Assembly (NCBI GenBank): GCA_013822765.1
Contig: PNKY01000001.1
Location: 186,001-250,000 of the forward strand
Source: Rhodospirillum sp.
GTDB lineage: Bacteria > Pseudomonadota > Alphaproteobacteria > Dongiales > Dongiaceae
Direction: 5' to 3'
Length of the DNA stretch: 64,000 nucleotides
A model generated the notes under the pieces. It was given only the letters and a program-made list of their open reading frames with translations, ran no database searches and was not told the DNA's origin. Shown here piece by piece: positions 24,082 through 35,326 of this stretch (within the stretch, counting starts at the first letter, position 1; each line of letters begins with the position of its first letter). Made by a program: the position numbers and the translations under genes.

Positions 24082-24151
24082 CATTCAAATGGAGTGATCC
24101 AGCCGGCGGGGATGGGGAAATCCTAGCGGGCGGGTCATGAGGGAGGATTGC

Positions 24152-27100
24152 ATGACTAATTTTCGCGGCCGGCGAACCCTGAGTCTCGCCGCCGCAGCCG
24201 TCACCGTTCTGTGGCTGATCGGTGTCGCCTGGTACATCTTCGAATTCATCGGTGTGGATGCGCTTGCAGGCATGCTGCCGCATGAGCTGGGCACGGTGGT
24301 CGCCGGCATCACGGCGCCGATCCTGCTGCTGTGGCTGCTGGTCGCCTTCGTGGTGCGCGGCCAGGCGCTCAAGGAGCACACCGACCTGCTGGCCAGCCGC
24401 CTCGCCGAGCTGACCTTTCCCGACTCATCGTCCGAGCATCGCATCAACTCGATCGCCGAGGCGCTGCGCCGTCAGGCCACCGATCTGCGTCTGGCGACCG
24501 AAGAAGCCGCGGCCGCGCTGGACGGCACGCGCGCCCTGTTCCGGTCCCAGGCCAGCGACATCGACACCGCCGCAAAGGCCGCACGCGCCCGCGGCGAGGA
24601 AGTCGAGAGCACGCTCGCGGAACAGCGCCGCCTCCTGACGGAAATCACGGGCATGGTGGAGAAGCAGCGCGAAGGCCTGAGCCAGACCGGCAAGGACCAG
24701 GCAGCCGCGATGGAAGCGGCGGCGGAAGAGAGCGCGCGCCGCATCACGCAGGTGCTGGACGGCAAGCGCAACGAGATCACGGCGGTGGTCGACCGCATCC
24801 TCGACCACGGCTCCAGCGTGCGCGACGCGGTGGAAACCCAGGCCGAGCGCCTGGGCGATCAGGTCGAGCAGTCGATGGGTCGCTTCCGCGAGCATATGAC
24901 CCAGCTCGCCGGCCGGATCGACGAGGCGACCGAGACCTCGCGCCACGAGACCAAGACCATGATCCAGGCGACCGAGGCGTCGCAGCGCGAATTCACCACT
25001 CACACCGAGACCCTGGCCGCGCAGATCCGCGGCAGCGCCAAGCAGATGAGCCAGCAGCTGACGCGCCTCGCCGACCAGGCGGTGGCGGCGGCCGAGAAGA
25101 CCGCTGCGGACAGCGCTGTGCTGGAACAGGCGAGCCGCGCCCAGGTGGAACGCTTGAGTGCCGCCGCGACCCTCGCGGGCGAGCAGTTCCGCCAGTCCTT
25201 CGACCGCCTGGCGACCGACGTCGGTGCCATGACACAATCGACCTCCGACCGGCTGGGCGAGCGCGAAAAGGCGATGCGCGCCGCGCTGGACGATAACAGC
25301 AAGCAGCTGGGCGACGCGACGATCGAGGCCGCCAAGTCCTTCGCCGACAAGGTCAGCGAGTTCAAGACCGCGCTGGCCGGCGCGACCGACGTGGCCACCC
25401 GGCAGACCACCGAGCTGCAGCAGCTGGTGGATCAGCAGAGCGGGCGCATGACCCTGGCGGCCGACGCCGCCTCGCAGCGCTTCCGCACCCACATCGACAG
25501 CCACGAGGCGAAGCTGGACGAACTGGCGCAGGTCGCGGCCAAGAAGGCCGACGACCTCGCCACTGCGATCCAGGCGCATGGCAGCATTCTGGAGGGCGCC
25601 GCCGGCCGCGGCTCCGAGAAGTTCGCCGATCTGCTGCGCAAGGAAGCGGCCAAGATCGACGAGCATCTGTTCGAGGTCGAGAAGCGCAATACCAAGCTCG
25701 GCACCGACATCGACAAGCAGGCCGAGCGGGTCGGCGGCATCATCGACAAGGCCGGCGAGCGCATCGCCGCCTATGTGACCGCACAGGAAACCAAGCTCGA
25801 CGATCTCGACAAGGCCGCAAGCGATCGCGTGGCCAAGCTCAGCGAGCAGATCGCCGCCCAGCGCGAGCAGCTGGTGGCGGCGGGCGAGCAAGCCGGCGAT
25901 GCCCTGCGCCAACGCATGGCGCTGCACACCATGGCGCTGGGCGAGACCTGGCGCGAGCAGCACACCAAGCTGTCGGAGCTGGTGCAGGCGCTGGAACAGC
26001 GCACCACCAATCTCGGCGACGAGCTGGAGACTCATGGCAAGCGCGCCACCCAGGTGGCGGCCGAAGGCGCCGACCGGTTCGGCGAGCGGCTCACCGAGCA
26101 CAGCGAGCGCATGCGCTCGCTGGAGCAGCAGGCGGCCGAGCATTGGCGCTCCGCCATCAGCGGTTACGGCGATTCGATTGCCGGCGCGTTGCAGGAGATC
26201 GACCGCCGCGCCGCCGCGCTGGCCGATGCGGCGGCGGGACAAAGCCGTTTGTTGTCGGAAGCCGCCGACCGCGCGGCGCAGACCCTGCGCGGCCAGCTCG
26301 ACGGCCATTCGCAGGCCCTGAGCGCCGTGGTCGACAGCCTGATCCGGCGCACCGGCGACTTGTCCGGCCTGGCGCTGGCGCACGGCGACAAGCTGAACGA
26401 GGCGACGGACCAGGTCGGGGCCAAGCTGAAGGACCAGCTCGACAAGCATCTGGTCGCGGTCCGCGATACTGCGGGCGAGCTGGAGAACCGCTCCACCGCG
26501 CTCGAACAGTCCATGCAGGCTGCTAACGCCAGGCTGCAGGATATGGCGCAGCAGGCGGCGGGTTCGCTGCACAGCCTGATGCGCGGGCAGTCGGACGAGT
26601 TCCTGAACGCGGCCGAACAGATAGGCACGCGCATCAAGGAGCTGCAGGGCGCCACCGTCGCGCAGCGCGACGAACTGATCGCGGCCGCCAAGCAGGCCGG
26701 CGCGTATCTGGAATCCGCGCTCAAGCTGCAGGCGCAGGAGATCGCGGCCACCGCTGCCGGGCTGGTGCAGCAGACTCACGGCCTCAGCGCTTCGGCCAAG
26801 GTGCAGGCTGAGCTGACCGGCCAGGGCCTCGCCGACATCGTCGCCAGCTTCGAGGAAGCGGCGCAACGCCAGGCTTCGCACCTGAAGGACGTGGCCGCCG
26901 CGGCCGCCAACGAAGCGACCAAGAATCTCGGCACCGAAAGCGAAGGCGTGCGCGCCTTGTTCCAGGACCTGGTCGATCGCGGCCGGGCCTTGTCGGACGC
27001 CGCCAACTCCCAGGCCGTCACCCTGGGCAAGGCCGCGGCGCAGGCCGCCGACGTCGCCATCGCCATGCGCGATGCGCTGTCCAAGCAGGCGCACGAGGCG

Positions 27101-28885
27101 AGCCGCGCCGGTCTGCAATTGACGGAGCGCGCCTCGGAAGCGAGCCGTGGGTTGCAGCGGCAGGTCGAGGATCTCGCCGGCACCATCGAAGGGCTGATCA
27201 ACCGCCATGCCGCCGGCCTGAAGACCGCCGGCGCCGCCGCGGCGGAGCGCGCCATCGATCTCGGCCAGACTCTGCAGCGGCAGAGCGACGACCTGCAGTC
27301 CGCATTGGCAAAGACCAACGCGGCGACCATTGAGATCCGCCAGAACCTGAAGGCCCAGATCGACGACGTGGGCAAAGTGGCGGAGCGGGTCGCGGTCGAG
27401 GCGCAGGGAATCGCCCAGTCCTTCCGCAACGATGCCGCGGCGCTGATCGAAGCGTCGAGCCGCGCCACCGACGGCGCCGGCACGCTCAACCAGACCCTGC
27501 GCAAGTCGATCCAGGATCTCGATACGGCGACCGCGACCGCCGCCGCCAAGACCACGGTCATCCGCAAGGAAGTGGAATCACAGTGCGATGTCCTGCGCCA
27601 GGCCGCGTCGGAAGGCGCGCGCCAGTCGGATCAGCTGGCGCAGCTGCATCTCGGCCAGGCCGCGCAGCTGGCGGGCGCCGCCGACGTGGCGCGCCGCCGC
27701 CTGGAGGAAGTGGGCCAGAGCCTGGTGCAGCAGACGGAGGGCCTGACCGCCGTCATCGACCGCTCGCTGCTGCGCCAGCACGATCTCAACGATTCGCTGA
27801 CGCAGCGCATGGGTCTGGTGAGCCAGACCGCCAAGGATGGCGAAACGCAGCTCGTCGCCTTGAACGAGCAGGTGGGGAGCCTGGCCCAGACCTTGAAGGA
27901 CGCGACCCTGGAAGGCGCGCGGCAGGCGCGCGACGTGGTGCAAAGCTGCCGCGACGGCGGCGAGGCGCTGACCCAGCTCGCCAAGCGCGCGGGCGGCCAG
28001 CTCGACGATCTCAAGACCTCGGTCAACGTGCAGCTGCAGGAGCTGGCGCAGCTCTCGCAGCAGGTCGTCAATCTCGGCCAGTCGGTGCGCGGCCAACTGC
28101 AGGGCCAGACCGCGGAGTTTGCCGCCGCCGCCAACGCGGCGAAGGCGAGCGCGGAAGCCGCCAAGTCGGAGGCCACCGCCGCCAGCGAGCTCTCCGGCAA
28201 GCACTCGGTCGTCCTGATCGACGCCGCGCACAAGCTGAACCAGGAGTTCAAGGCAGCCTCGGTCACGCTGGAGGAGCGCGTGTCGCACATGACGCGGGTC
28301 GCGGAGCAGGCAATCCAGCGCGCCACCCATGTGGCGCAGAGCTTCGACAAACAGACCAACAGCCTGCGGGTCTCGCTCGACGCCGCGACCCAGCGTACCA
28401 GCGAGCTCGGCGCGCGCTTCCAATTGCAGACCCAGGAGATCGCGAAGTCGACCCAGGCCGCGATGGACCGGCTGGACAAGCTGCGCCAGACCACGGCGCT
28501 CACCACCCGCGATGCGTTCCTGAAGATCGCGGCGGTGATGATCGACGAGCTCAACGGCCTCGCGCTCGACATGCACAACCTGCTCGATTCCGAAGTGCCG
28601 GATGACGTGTGGAAGCGCTACCGCAACGGCGACCGCTCGGTATTCGCGCGCCGGCTGTTCAAGTCAAAGGATGCCTACATCATCCCGGCGATCGAGCAGC
28701 GCTACCAGCGCGACGACAAGTTCCAGGACATGGTCGACCGCTACCTGGCGAAGTTCGAGAACCTGCTGAGCCACTCCGCGTCGGCCGATCCGGAATCGGT
28801 GCTGAGCGCCACCTTCATCACCGCCGACGTGGGCAAGCTCTACCTGGTGATGTCGCGCAGCCTCGGCCGCGCGACGGAGCATTGA
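24152..28885 (+). CDS. Giant membrane-anchored coiled-coil protein (TipN/GPR-like), 1577 aa
   Basis: Two N-terminal membrane helices (~10-33 and ~47-69) are followed by roughly 1370 residues of Ala/Gln/Glu/Lys-rich helical repeats with apolipoprotein-like amphipathic periodicity. A conserved-looking globular end (~1448-1577) contains 'DAFLKIAAVMIDELNGLALD' and 'FQDMVDRYLAKFENLL'. This architecture resembles Caulobacter TipN and the Agrobacterium growth-pole-ring protein GPR, both polar scaffolds. Homology was judged by architecture only. The start is ATG 24152, with GGGAGG about six bases upstream; an ATG at 24137 lacks such a site. The methyltransferase gene follows after 10 bp. Confidence 0.8.
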   Translation: MTNFRGRRTLSLAAAAVTVLWLIGVAWYIFEFIGVDALAGMLPHELGTVVAGITAPILLLWLLVAFVVRGQALKEHTDLLASRLAELTFPDSSSEHRINSIAEALRRQATDLRLATEEAAAALDGTRALFRSQASDIDTAAKAARARGEEVESTLAEQRRLLTEITGMVEKQREGLSQTGKDQAAAMEAAAEESARRITQVLDGKRNEITAVVDRILDHGSSVRDAVETQAERLGDQVEQSMGRFREHMTQLAGRIDEATETSRHETKTMIQATEASQREFTTHTETLAAQIRGSAKQMSQQLTRLADQAVAAAEKTAADSAVLEQASRAQVERLSAAATLAGEQFRQSFDRLATDVGAMTQSTSDRLGEREKAMRAALDDNSKQLGDATIEAAKSFADKVSEFKTALAGATDVATRQTTELQQLVDQQSGRMTLAADAASQRFRTHIDSHEAKLDELAQVAAKKADDLATAIQAHGSILEGAAGRGSEKFADLLRKEAAKIDEHLFEVEKRNTKLGTDIDKQAERVGGIIDKAGERIAAYVTAQETKLDDLDKAASDRVAKLSEQIAAQREQLVAAGEQAGDALRQRMALHTMALGETWREQHTKLSELVQALEQRTTNLGDELETHGKRATQVAAEGADRFGERLTEHSERMRSLEQQAAEHWRSAISGYGDSIAGALQEIDRRAAALADAAAGQSRLLSEAADRAAQTLRGQLDGHSQALSAVVDSLIRRTGDLSGLALAHGDKLNEATDQVGAKLKDQLDKHLVAVRDTAGELENRSTALEQSMQAANARLQDMAQQAAGSLHSLMRGQSDEFLNAAEQIGTRIKELQGATVAQRDELIAAAKQAGAYLESALKLQAQEIAATAAGLVQQTHGLSASAKVQAELTGQGLADIVASFEEAAQRQASHLKDVAAAAANEATKNLGTESEGVRALFQDLVDRGRALSDAANSQAVTLGKAAAQAADVAIAMRDALSKQAHEASRAGLQLTERASEASRGLQRQVEDLAGTIEGLINRHAAGLKTAGAAAAERAIDLGQTLQRQSDDLQSALAKTNAATIEIRQNLKAQIDDVGKVAERVAVEAQGIAQSFRNDAAALIEASSRATDGAGTLNQTLRKSIQDLDTATATAAAKTTVIRKEVESQCDVLRQAASEGARQSDQLAQLHLGQAAQLAGAADVARRRLEEVGQSLVQQTEGLTAVIDRSLLRQHDLNDSLTQRMGLVSQTAKDGETQLVALNEQVGSLAQTLKDATLEGARQARDVVQSCRDGGEALTQLAKRAGGQLDDLKTSVNVQLQELAQLSQQVVNLGQSVRGQLQGQTAEFAAAANAAKASAEAAKSEATAASELSGKHSVVLIDAAHKLNQEFKAASVTLEERVSHMTRVAEQAIQRATHVAQSFDKQTNSLRVSLDAATQRTSELGARFQLQTQEIAKSTQAAMDRLDKLRQTTALTTRDAFLKIAAVMIDELNGLALDMHNLLDSEVPDDVWKRYRNGDRSVFARRLFKSKDAYIIPAIEQRYQRDDKFQDMVDRYLAKFENLLSHSASADPESVLSATFITADVGKLYLVMSRSLGRATEH

Positions 28886-33311: not shown

Positions 33312-34142
33312 ATGTTTGCCGATCTGGTGGCGGGCCTCAACGCCCTGCCGACCGAATCCATGCTCGCGATCGAGCTGGTTGTCGTATTCAGTCTCATCCC
33401 GCTGGTGCTGCGCCCGTTCGGCGCCGCCGGCATGTTCATCTTCATCGCCGTCGGCATCATCGCCGCCAACGTGCAGGTGCTGAAGTCGGCGAGCTTCAGC
33501 TTCTACGCCTCGCCGATCCCGCTCGGCACCGTCGCCTTCTCCGCGACCTATGTCGCGACCGACGTGCTGACCGAGTATTACGGCCGCGCCACCGCGCGCA
33601 AGGCGGTGTGGCTCGGCTTCGCCGCCATGCTGCTGATCACGGTCATGATGCTGCTGGTCATGGGTTACAAGCCGATGACGCCGGAGGCGGCGCAGGAATC
33701 CGGCATGGGCTGGGCGCTGCCCAACCACGACCACATCCTGGCGCTCTATCTGCCGCAGGCGGCCTTGCTGATCGCGGGCCTCAGCTCGTACCTGATCAGC
33801 CAGATGAACGACATCTACGTGTTCCAGAAGATCCGCCAATGGACCGGCCGCGGCCAGCTATGGGTGCGCGCCTGCGGCTCGACCGCGGTGTCGGCGCTGG
33901 TCGACAACACGGTGTTCTCGACCCTCGCCTGGATGGTGTTTCCCTGGCTGCTAGGCCAACACGATCAAGTGGTGGATCTCCACACCCTCATCTTCACCTT
34001 CATCCTCGGCACCTATTGGATCCGCCTCGCGATGGCGTTCCTGGAGGTGCCCTTCATGTATGCCGCGCGCTGGTTCCTGCCCGAGGAAGACCGCCGCGCC
34101 TACGAAGCGCGCAACGACGGTGTTCTGCCGGCGATCACATGA
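33312..34142 (+). CDS. yhhQ: Queuosine-precursor transporter, YhhQ/VUT family
   Basis: An inner-membrane protein of 276 residues with about six or seven helices. The hallmark 'ATYVATDVLTEYYGRATARKAVWLGF' and the later 'YLISQMNDIYVFQKIRQWT' identify the YhhQ (vitamin uptake-like) family, which imports preQ1, preQ0 or queuine. It is longer than E. coli YhhQ, with extra residues between helices. Ribosome site GAGGAAGGA lies just upstream of ATG 33312. Its stop overlaps the tgt start by 4 bp (ATGA), so uptake and tRNA insertion are directly coupled. I saw no convincing preQ1 riboswitch upstream. Confidence 0.9.
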   Translation: MFADLVAGLNALPTESMLAIELVVVFSLIPLVLRPFGAAGMFIFIAVGIIAANVQVLKSASFSFYASPIPLGTVAFSATYVATDVLTEYYGRATARKAVWLGFAAMLLITVMMLLVMGYKPMTPEAAQESGMGWALPNHDHILALYLPQAALLIAGLSSYLISQMNDIYVFQKIRQWTGRGQLWVRACGSTAVSALVDNTVFSTLAWMVFPWLLGQHDQVVDLHTLIFTFILGTYWIRLAMAFLEVPFMYAARWFLPEEDRRAYEARNDGVLPAIT

Positions 34143-35326
34143 CCCTCACCTATCCCAACTTCGCGTTCGACATCGTCGCCGGGGACCCGCAGGGCACGCG
34201 CGCGCGGCGCGGGTGGCTGACGACGCCGCACGGCGCGCTCGACACGCCGGCTTTCATCTTCTGCGCCACCAAGGCGGCGATGAAGGCCTGCTCGCCGGCC
34301 GGGCTGCGGGAAGAGAAGACTCAGATCATCCTCTCCAACACCTATCACCTGATGCTGCAGCCGGGCGCGGACCTGGTGGCGAAGATGGGCGGGCTGCACC
34401 GCTTCATGGGCTGGGACGGCCCGATGCTGACCGATTCCGGCGGCTTCCAGATCTTCAGCCTCGGCCACGGCTCGGTCGCCGACGAGATCAAGGGCCGGCG
34501 CGACATCGCGCGGCCCAAGACACTGCTCAAGATCAGCGAAAAGGGCGCGGCCTTCCGCTCCTACATCGACGGCAGCAAGCACCTGCTGACGCCGGAAGGC
34601 TCGATCGACATCCAGCGCAAGCTCGGCGCCGATCTCATCGTCACGTTCGACGAATGCACGCCGTACCACTCCGACCGCACCTACACCGAGCGCTCGCTGC
34701 GCCTCAGCAACCGCTGGGCCGACCGCTGCATCGCCGAGTTCGAGCGCGGCCATGACGGCCGCCAAGCGCTCTACGGCATCCTGCAAGGCGGGGTCTATCA
34801 GGATCTGCGCCACGAAGCGGCGGAGTTCGTGAGTGACCGCCCGTTCTTCGGCAACGCCGTCGGCGGCACGCTTGGCGCCGATAGCGCGCAGATGGACGAG
34901 GTGGTCGGCCATGCGATGGAAAAGCTGAATCGCCAGCGTCCGACCCACTTGCTCGGCATCGGCGGCATCCGCGACATCTTCGCCGGCGTGGCGCAGGGCA
35001 TCGACACTTTCGACTGCGTCAGCCCGACCCGCATCGCTAGACATGGCGCCGCCCTGATGCCGGGCGTGAAGGGCGAGCGCGTCAACCTCAAGAACGCGCG
35101 CTTCAGGGAAGACGGCGCACCGATCGACGAGACCTGCGACTGCTACTGCTGCCGCAACTTCACGCGCGCCTACGTGCATCACCTGATCAAGGCGGAAGAG
35201 CTGCTTGGCATGCAGCTCCTCACCCAGCACAACATCAACGTGATGAACCGCCTGATGCGCGACGTGCAGGCTGCGATTCCGGAGGGCAGGCTGGACGAGC
35301 TCAGGAAGCGCTGGGTGGCCAACTGA
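34139..35326 (+). CDS. tgt: tRNA-guanine transglycosylase (queuine-type pocket)
   Basis: Exchanges guanine-34 of GUN-anticodon tRNAs for a queuosine base. The protein has 395 residues. Asp99 lies in 'MLTDSGGFQIFSL', nucleophile Asp282 in 'IDTFDCVSPTR', and Zn ligands are Cys333, Cys335, Cys338 and His364. Two features are unlike the usual bacterial enzyme. The substrate loop reads GGTLGAD (242-248) rather than GGLAVGE, putting Gly246 where preQ1-specific enzymes have Val233. The later segment is 'PTRIARHGAALM' instead of 'PTRNARNG'. Eukaryotic, queuine-specific enzymes also have Gly there. Start ATG 34139 overlaps the yhhQ stop; the longer frame upstream is not coding. Confidence 0.95.
   Translation: MTLTYPNFAFDIVAGDPQGTRARRGWLTTPHGALDTPAFIFCATKAAMKACSPAGLREEKTQIILSNTYHLMLQPGADLVAKMGGLHRFMGWDGPMLTDSGGFQIFSLGHGSVADEIKGRRDIARPKTLLKISEKGAAFRSYIDGSKHLLTPEGSIDIQRKLGADLIVTFDECTPYHSDRTYTERSLRLSNRWADRCIAEFERGHDGRQALYGILQGGVYQDLRHEAAEFVSDRPFFGNAVGGTLGADSAQMDEVVGHAMEKLNRQRPTHLLGIGGIRDIFAGVAQGIDTFDCVSPTRIARHGAALMPGVKGERVNLKNARFREDGAPIDETCDCYCCRNFTRAYVHHLIKAEELLGMQLLTQHNINVMNRLMRDVQAAIPEGRLDELRKRWVAN

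Follow-up and report, generated by a model that had tools for sequence, protein, structure and literature searches.

The window that we analysed, a stretch of 64,000 nucleotides, carries two overlapping genes, yhhQ and tgt, which very probably form a queuine-salvage operon, predicted to act by a chlamydia-like route in a genome of 5.8 Mb. The first gene (yhhQ, 33312-34142, forward strand) encodes a queuosine-precursor transporter of 276 amino acids (QPTR, PF02592/TIGR00697), a predicted queuine importer, and the second (tgt, 34139-35326, forward strand) encodes a tRNA-guanine(34) transglycosylase of 395 amino acids, which belongs to a chlamydia-like type that we call window-type and is predicted to insert queuine. 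Queuine, presumably supplied by other organisms nearby, would be imported by YhhQ and then exchanged by Tgt for guanine-34 in tRNAs with GUN anticodons to render queuosine in one step; the Q34 of tRNA-Asp so made would subsequently be glutamylated by GluQRS. The original prediction of queuine uptake and direct insertion that bypasses de novo synthesis is supported by gene absences, by the trees, by the presence of GluQRS and by the clade to which YhhQ belongs.

The stop codon of yhhQ and the start codon of tgt share the four bases ATGA (34139-34142, forward strand), as had been claimed for this pair and as can be read in the sequence, and the two genes may well be co-transcribed. The overlap is likewise 4 bp in two congeners (G002 and G003), and yhhQ adjoins tgt in all four genomes of the genus, in which both genes are kept intact, with Tgt identities of 89-92%. 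The NCBIfam labels for the pair are queuosine precursor transporter and tRNA guanosine(34) transglycosylase, with YhhQ scoring 123.9 bits against TIGR00697 (curated cut-off 50.95) and Tgt 435.4 bits against TIGR00430 (curated cut-off 306.75). Against the model of the E. coli-type preQ0/preQ1 transporter (NF008406) YhhQ scored 30.7 bits, under the cut-off of 252. A predicted model of Tgt (mean pLDDT 92.4, lowest at residues 101-130, which hold the insert described below, at 59-76) and fold searches confirmed the TGT fold, and they give no residue-level view of the pocket; human QTRT1 was absent among the 50 matches listed in either fold search, which is uninformative about QTRT1. Elsewhere in the window, an open reading frame of 1582 amino acids (24137-28885), rich in Ala and Gln, probably encodes a long coiled-coil protein.

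Our profile searches of the genome (97.7% complete, 53 contigs, estimated contamination 5.8%) recovered one TGT and one YhhQ and no QueA, QueG, QueC or QueD, in keeping with the predicted lack of de novo synthesis; the sole match to the QueF model (28 bits) is FolE and was rejected as a QueF. Neither QueA nor QueG was found by the same kind of search in any of the three congeners (G001, 68% complete; G002 and G003, both 100%). One of these, G002, has a run of genes (L047:4296-9561) in the order dpdB, dpdA, dpdB, queE, queD and queC, followed by a gene for a weak YhhQ-like protein. This run is a 7-deazaguanine DNA-modification cluster and explains the QueC and QueD matches of G002, for which a de novo tRNA pathway was rejected because QueC, QueD and QueE lie in the dpdA/dpdB cluster and there is no QueA or QueG; its QueF-model match (27.5 bits) is as weak as the FolE match above. 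Each of the other 13 genomes in the family carries QueA and QueG together with a canonical Tgt. Eleven of them have neither a QueC match above 30 bits nor a QueD match, nine have a QueF above 100 bits, and eleven have a YhhQ above 170 bits near queA. In these genomes (G004-G016; L196-L199, L209, L210) queA, tgt and queG mostly lie together, often with queF and a preQ-type yhhQ. Since queA and queG are kept in all 13, and QueC and QueD are lacking in 11, most members of the family appear to be salvagers of preQ0 or preQ1; the genus of the window genome seems to have changed its salvage target from a preQ0/preQ1 precursor to the finished base, queuine.

The pocket of the enzyme was read from alignments (all positions on the forward strand). 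The canonical preQ1-type loop GGLAVGE is absent; instead the loop reads GGTLGAD (GGTLG, 34862-34876), one residue shorter. An insert of about 18 residues (GHGSVADEIKGRRDIARPK, 34463-34519) follows the TDSGGFQIFSL segment in the Tyr106 region, where the Zymomonas mobilis TGT has a gap of 18; a similar insert occurs in chlamydial Tgts, and none of this kind was seen in the canonical Tgts aligned. Cys173 (34655-34657) corresponds to Cys158 of the Z. mobilis enzyme, so that the Val at this position that marks eukaryotic QTRT1 and the Leu that marks chlamydial Tgts and BL-TGTs are both absent; Cys is kept in 64/64 window-type Tgts, with Leu in the eight chlamydial rows. The motif PTRIARHG (35024-35047) takes the form PTR[ILVM][AG]RHG in all 64, and Glu235 is not conserved. 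The letters of the loop (GGTLGAD) and of PTRIARHGAALM are present as the original prediction gave them. However, the exact position of the glycine depends on where the gap is placed: MAFFT aligns the loop as GG-TLG, with Leu at 233 and Gly at 234, and in the five phmmer alignments displayed the gap shifted with the target, so that Leu fell at 233 against Z. mobilis chains with Val233 and the Gly of GGTLG fell at 233 against chains with Gly233. The published queuine-type loop GG[LS][AS]G is similar to GGTLG, but here too the gap can be placed in two ways. According to the available part of one study (PMC3660597), exchange of Val233 for Gly is held to open the space needed for queuine and exchange of Cys158 for Val lowers preQ1 affinity, and Z. 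mobilis mutants with both changes, Val233Gly included, did not insert queuine. Val233Gly was dropped as the key change in the form first stated, since one residue is deleted from the loop and the gap can go in either of two places: the glycine-bearing loop is there, and a Gly at exactly 233 hinges on the alignment. The description of the pocket as eukaryote-like was too strong, given that Cys158 is retained and Gly233 is gap-dependent; it is chlamydial Tgts that match the shortened loop and carry an insert like this one. The original prediction therefore reached a conclusion that stands, by way of a plain Val-to-Gly change and a eukaryotic resemblance that do not. As judged from the aligned sequences, the pocket resembles the chlamydial one in its loop and insert, keeps the canonical residue at 158, and is chlamydia-like rather than eukaryote-like. 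With Cys158 kept, and Val there lowering preQ1 affinity, preQ1 may still bind.

Tgts of this type are found well beyond the genus. When the Tgts of the window genome and 60 relatives were scored with PF01702, they fell mostly into two groups, high and low, the low-scoring type occurring in 14 genomes (including the window genome and its three congeners) and having the loop GG[ST]LG, the insert GHGSVADEIKGR or similar, [ANS]FIFC and PTR[IL]ARHG. A profile (A1) built from these low-scoring Tgts was applied to 289 alphaproteobacterial genomes of at least 90% completeness, drawn evenly from a larger group. It separated 59 genomes at 552 bits or more (window-type) from 211 at 394 bits or less (canonical), with no genome in between and 19 without a match at E 1e-60. 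The 59 and five others from the relatives set together gave 64 window-type Tgts, the loops of which were GGSLG (36), GGCLG (14), GGTLG (11), GGSFG (2) and GDCLG (1), so that 61/64 have GG[STC]LG. Tgt trees were built from alignments stripped of the loop and insert columns (by quick searches, with SH-aLRT as the sole support measure and roots placed for drawing only), one of 109 rows with 47 of 80 named loci and all 30 loci of canonical relatives, and one of 90 rows with 15 of those 30 and with the chlamydial rows set as QueA-minus from the literature; neither tree includes three odd or partial TGTs (L048, L049, L051), and the smaller also omits L041 (G037). In the 109-row tree a branch with SH-aLRT 89 divides the window-type and chlamydial sequences from all others, and one with 98 divides the window-type sequences from the chlamydial; in the 90-row tree the window-type rows lie together on one side of a branch with support 95, and the canonical rows on one side of a branch with 99. 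The Tgt of the window groups with Tgts of other families, apart from the canonical Tgts of its own family, and lies outside the canonical, QueA-associated clade, as expected if the original prediction is right. Among named sequences the Tgt of a Dongiaceae MAG is the nearest (91% identity), and those of Nitrospirillum amazonense, Rhodospirillum centenum and Azospirillum sp. are 66-68% identical.

Several Tgts from other groups were also seen. Four from Thermodesulfobacteriota and Myxococcota (L117, L118, L119, L121) have a GGSLG loop, yet lie on the canonical side of the 109-row tree, and in L117-L122, from the same two phyla, there is an insert of other sequence, GVGKIASIFPE. Window-type Tgts occur in Verrucomicrobiota (Puniceicoccales, Opitutales) and in a Spirochaetes genome (L079, L098, L102, L108, L113, L123), and their nesting among alphaproteobacterial sequences makes a cross-phylum transfer possible. 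A record titled Rickettsia typhi (MAG; L055) holds a window-type yhhQ-tgt pair, a title that may be a misassignment.

The type of Tgt goes with the presence or absence of QueA. Neither QueA nor QueG was found in any of the 14 window-type genomes of the relatives set, and among the 289 genomes QueA was found in 212: 5/59 window-type, 204/211 canonical and 3/19 genomes without a Tgt match; in other words, it is lacking in 54/59 window-type versus 7/211 canonical genomes (Fisher p = 6e-43, a value that ignores shared descent). At least four changes of QueA presence are needed on the 90-row tree. Fifty-four of the 289 genomes therefore combine a chlamydia-like Tgt with no detected QueA, eight of them of at least 4 Mb. 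The five window-type genomes that do carry QueA are G111, G200 and G275 (one family, with GGCLG, an ordinary loop for this type; loci L141, L143, L144, L191, L193) and G126 and G284 (loop GGSFG; L142, L145). The queA gene of G111 is flanked by queG and by a yhhQ that groups with those near queA. The Tgts of G126 and G284 are the sole Phe-loop members of the 64, which makes the Phe a candidate specificity residue. The occurrence of QueA in these five means that Tgt type alone does not exclude preQ1 use, and some members of the window-type clade probably use preQ1, or both bases.

In 35 of the 64 window-type genomes a yhhQ gene immediately precedes tgt on the same strand, at a spacing of -34 to +152 bp, with an overlap in 24 of these 35 that is exactly 4 bp in six; it lies about 1 kb from tgt in one more and was not found in the examined stretch around tgt in 28. 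None of the five QueA-carrying window-type genomes has yhhQ beside tgt. In a YhhQ tree of 60 rows (four of them long and unsure in position), a clade with SH-aLRT 100, to which the YhhQ of the window belongs, is made up of one sequence from G037 and 44 that are encoded beside a window-type tgt, and seven near queA form a separate clade with three from elsewhere (SH-aLRT 99).

GluQRS glutamylates Q in tRNA-Asp and tends to be missing from genomes smaller than about 2 Mb, according to the part of PMC11332805 that was accessible. The window genome encodes a GluQRS outside the 64,000-nucleotide stretch (L132:1361-2191, reverse strand, G000:C3; NF004315, 355.4 bits, cut-off 250), the 276 amino acids of which fit the expected length of about 280, much shorter than GluRS. 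Its score against the broader model TIGR03838 (253.8 bits) is under that model's cut-off of 276.7. That model was rejected as a GluQRS detector, as it exceeded its cut-off in 1/61 genomes of the relatives set and also matches GluRS, and NF004315 was therefore used for the counts; the congener G002 scores 361 bits with it. GluQRS was found in 171 of the 289 genomes: 13/59 window-type, 154/211 canonical and 4/19 genomes without a Tgt match. These last four (G023 and G059, with QueG and QueF; G188 and G208, with a QueA match) are in 170-810 contigs, so a missed tgt is likely. The absence of GluQRS from 46/59 window-type genomes says little where the genomes are small, since the enzyme is usually missing below about 2 Mb; among window-type genomes of at least 3.5 Mb it is present in 10/10, eight of which are without QueA. 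In all, ten window-type genomes have GluQRS without QueA, compared with 0/7 of the canonical genomes that lack QueA.

The retention of GluQRS, whose known substrate is finished Q34, favours queuine over the use of preQ1 described for Bartonella, in which imported preQ1 is inserted and never converted to Q. In Bartonella henselae, which has bTGT and QPTR alone, the pair uses preQ1, and queuine serves only at high concentration, as reported in the accessible text of PMC11570991. The retained Cys158 would suit such a mechanism here, but the Bartonella Tgt has, in the same text, the canonical GGLAVG loop that the window Tgt does not, and the window genome keeps GluQRS, which no canonical-Tgt genome without QueA in our sample does. 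We consider this explanation quite unlikely. It is similarly improbable that the enzyme takes both preQ1 and queuine, or that unrelated enzymes replace QueA and QueG: the five window-type genomes with QueA, and G111 with its additional queG and adjoining preQ-type yhhQ, speak for dual use, but the great majority of window-type genomes have no QueA, and all 14 in the relatives set lack QueG as well. We know of no replacement for QueA.

Two further explanations concern the reality of the pattern. The completeness, the 53 contigs and the estimated contamination of the assembly leave some room for queA and queG to be present in the organism and missing from its assembly, but all four genomes of the genus are without both genes, two of them at 100% completeness, and the pattern recurs across the class, making an artefact very improbable. 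That the pair persists as a vestige supplying no modification is scarcely credible; in some Bartonella tgt decays once the other genes are lost (PMC11570991, in the part available), but here both genes are intact, conserved and adjacent throughout the genus. Queuine salvage by the yhhQ-tgt pair is the reading that we prefer.

Uptake of the finished base and its direct insertion have so far been described mainly in eukaryotes and intracellular bacteria. In the accessible portion of PMC11570991, a survey of 2127 alphaproteobacterial species gave tgt, queA and queG for all but Bartonella and predicted no queuine salvage, Anaplasma and Ehrlichia being listed as tgt only in its discussion; Rickettsia keep most of the de novo pathway (PMC5615194, as far as its text was available). 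Our literature search, in which most papers were judged by their listing and subscription papers were mostly out of reach, revealed no account of this Tgt type in such genomes. Our data suggest, and we think it likely, that a large overlooked group of Alphaproteobacteria, including members with genomes of 4-6 Mb, are queuine auxotrophs that take up their neighbours' queuine by means of a co-inherited yhhQ-tgt operon and insert it directly, the larger genomes then glutamylating the product with GluQRS. Among the named carriers of this Tgt type, Nitrospirillum amazonense, Rhodospirillum centenum and Azospirillum sp. live free, and the genome size of 5.8 Mb suggests the same for the organism studied here. 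If this is correct, queuine salvage would not be mainly a mark of life inside eukaryotic cells; it would be a trait that serves bacterial communities as a public good and can take the place of preQ1 salvage, with finished queuine circulating between bacteria and a tRNA modification thought to be home-made becoming a traded vitamin. GluQRS kept in the absence of QueA would mark out queuine users from preQ1 users at the genome level, and the five genomes with both QueA and a window-type Tgt offer natural tests of what determines the choice of substrate, which the Z. mobilis Val233Gly mutants did not settle.

The closest known system is that of Chlamydia trachomatis, which is reported to use queuine, salvaged by QPTR (YhhQ) and Tgt (Yuan et al., 2019, as cited in the accessible parts of PMC11570991, PMC11130926 and PMC12301720). 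As in C. trachomatis, the window genome has tgt and yhhQ and is without QueA and QueG, and as in the chlamydial Tgts compared, the enzyme has a short GG[ST][LV]G loop of the same length and an insert of the GSVAEEIKS type. Unlike the chlamydial enzyme, which has Leu, it keeps Cys158; it shares about 39-40% identity with the Chlamydia sequences examined and lies on another branch, and the pair comes from a genome of 5.8 Mb with GluQRS. Algal BL-TGTs of chlamydial origin have Gly at 233 and Leu at 158, according to the available text of PMC12301720. Bartonella henselae resembles the organism studied here as a member of the Alphaproteobacteria that has tgt and yhhQ and lacks both queA and queG, but its Tgt has the GGLAVG loop and prefers preQ1 (PMC11570991, in the sections available), whereas that of the window has the short loop and the insert. 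Eukaryotic QTRT1 shares a Gly in the loop region and queuine as the substrate predicted here, and differs in loop length, in the insert and in having Val161 where the window Tgt has Cys158. With the canonical preQ1 Tgts of Z. mobilis, E. coli and the sister genera of the family, the enzyme shares its fold and catalytic family, and it is set apart from those systems by its loop, insert and PTRIARHG motif and by the absence of QueA and QueG from its genome. The short loop, the insert and Cys158 are also found in the Tgts of Nitrospirillum amazonense, Rhodospirillum centenum and Azospirillum sp., which belong to other lineages.
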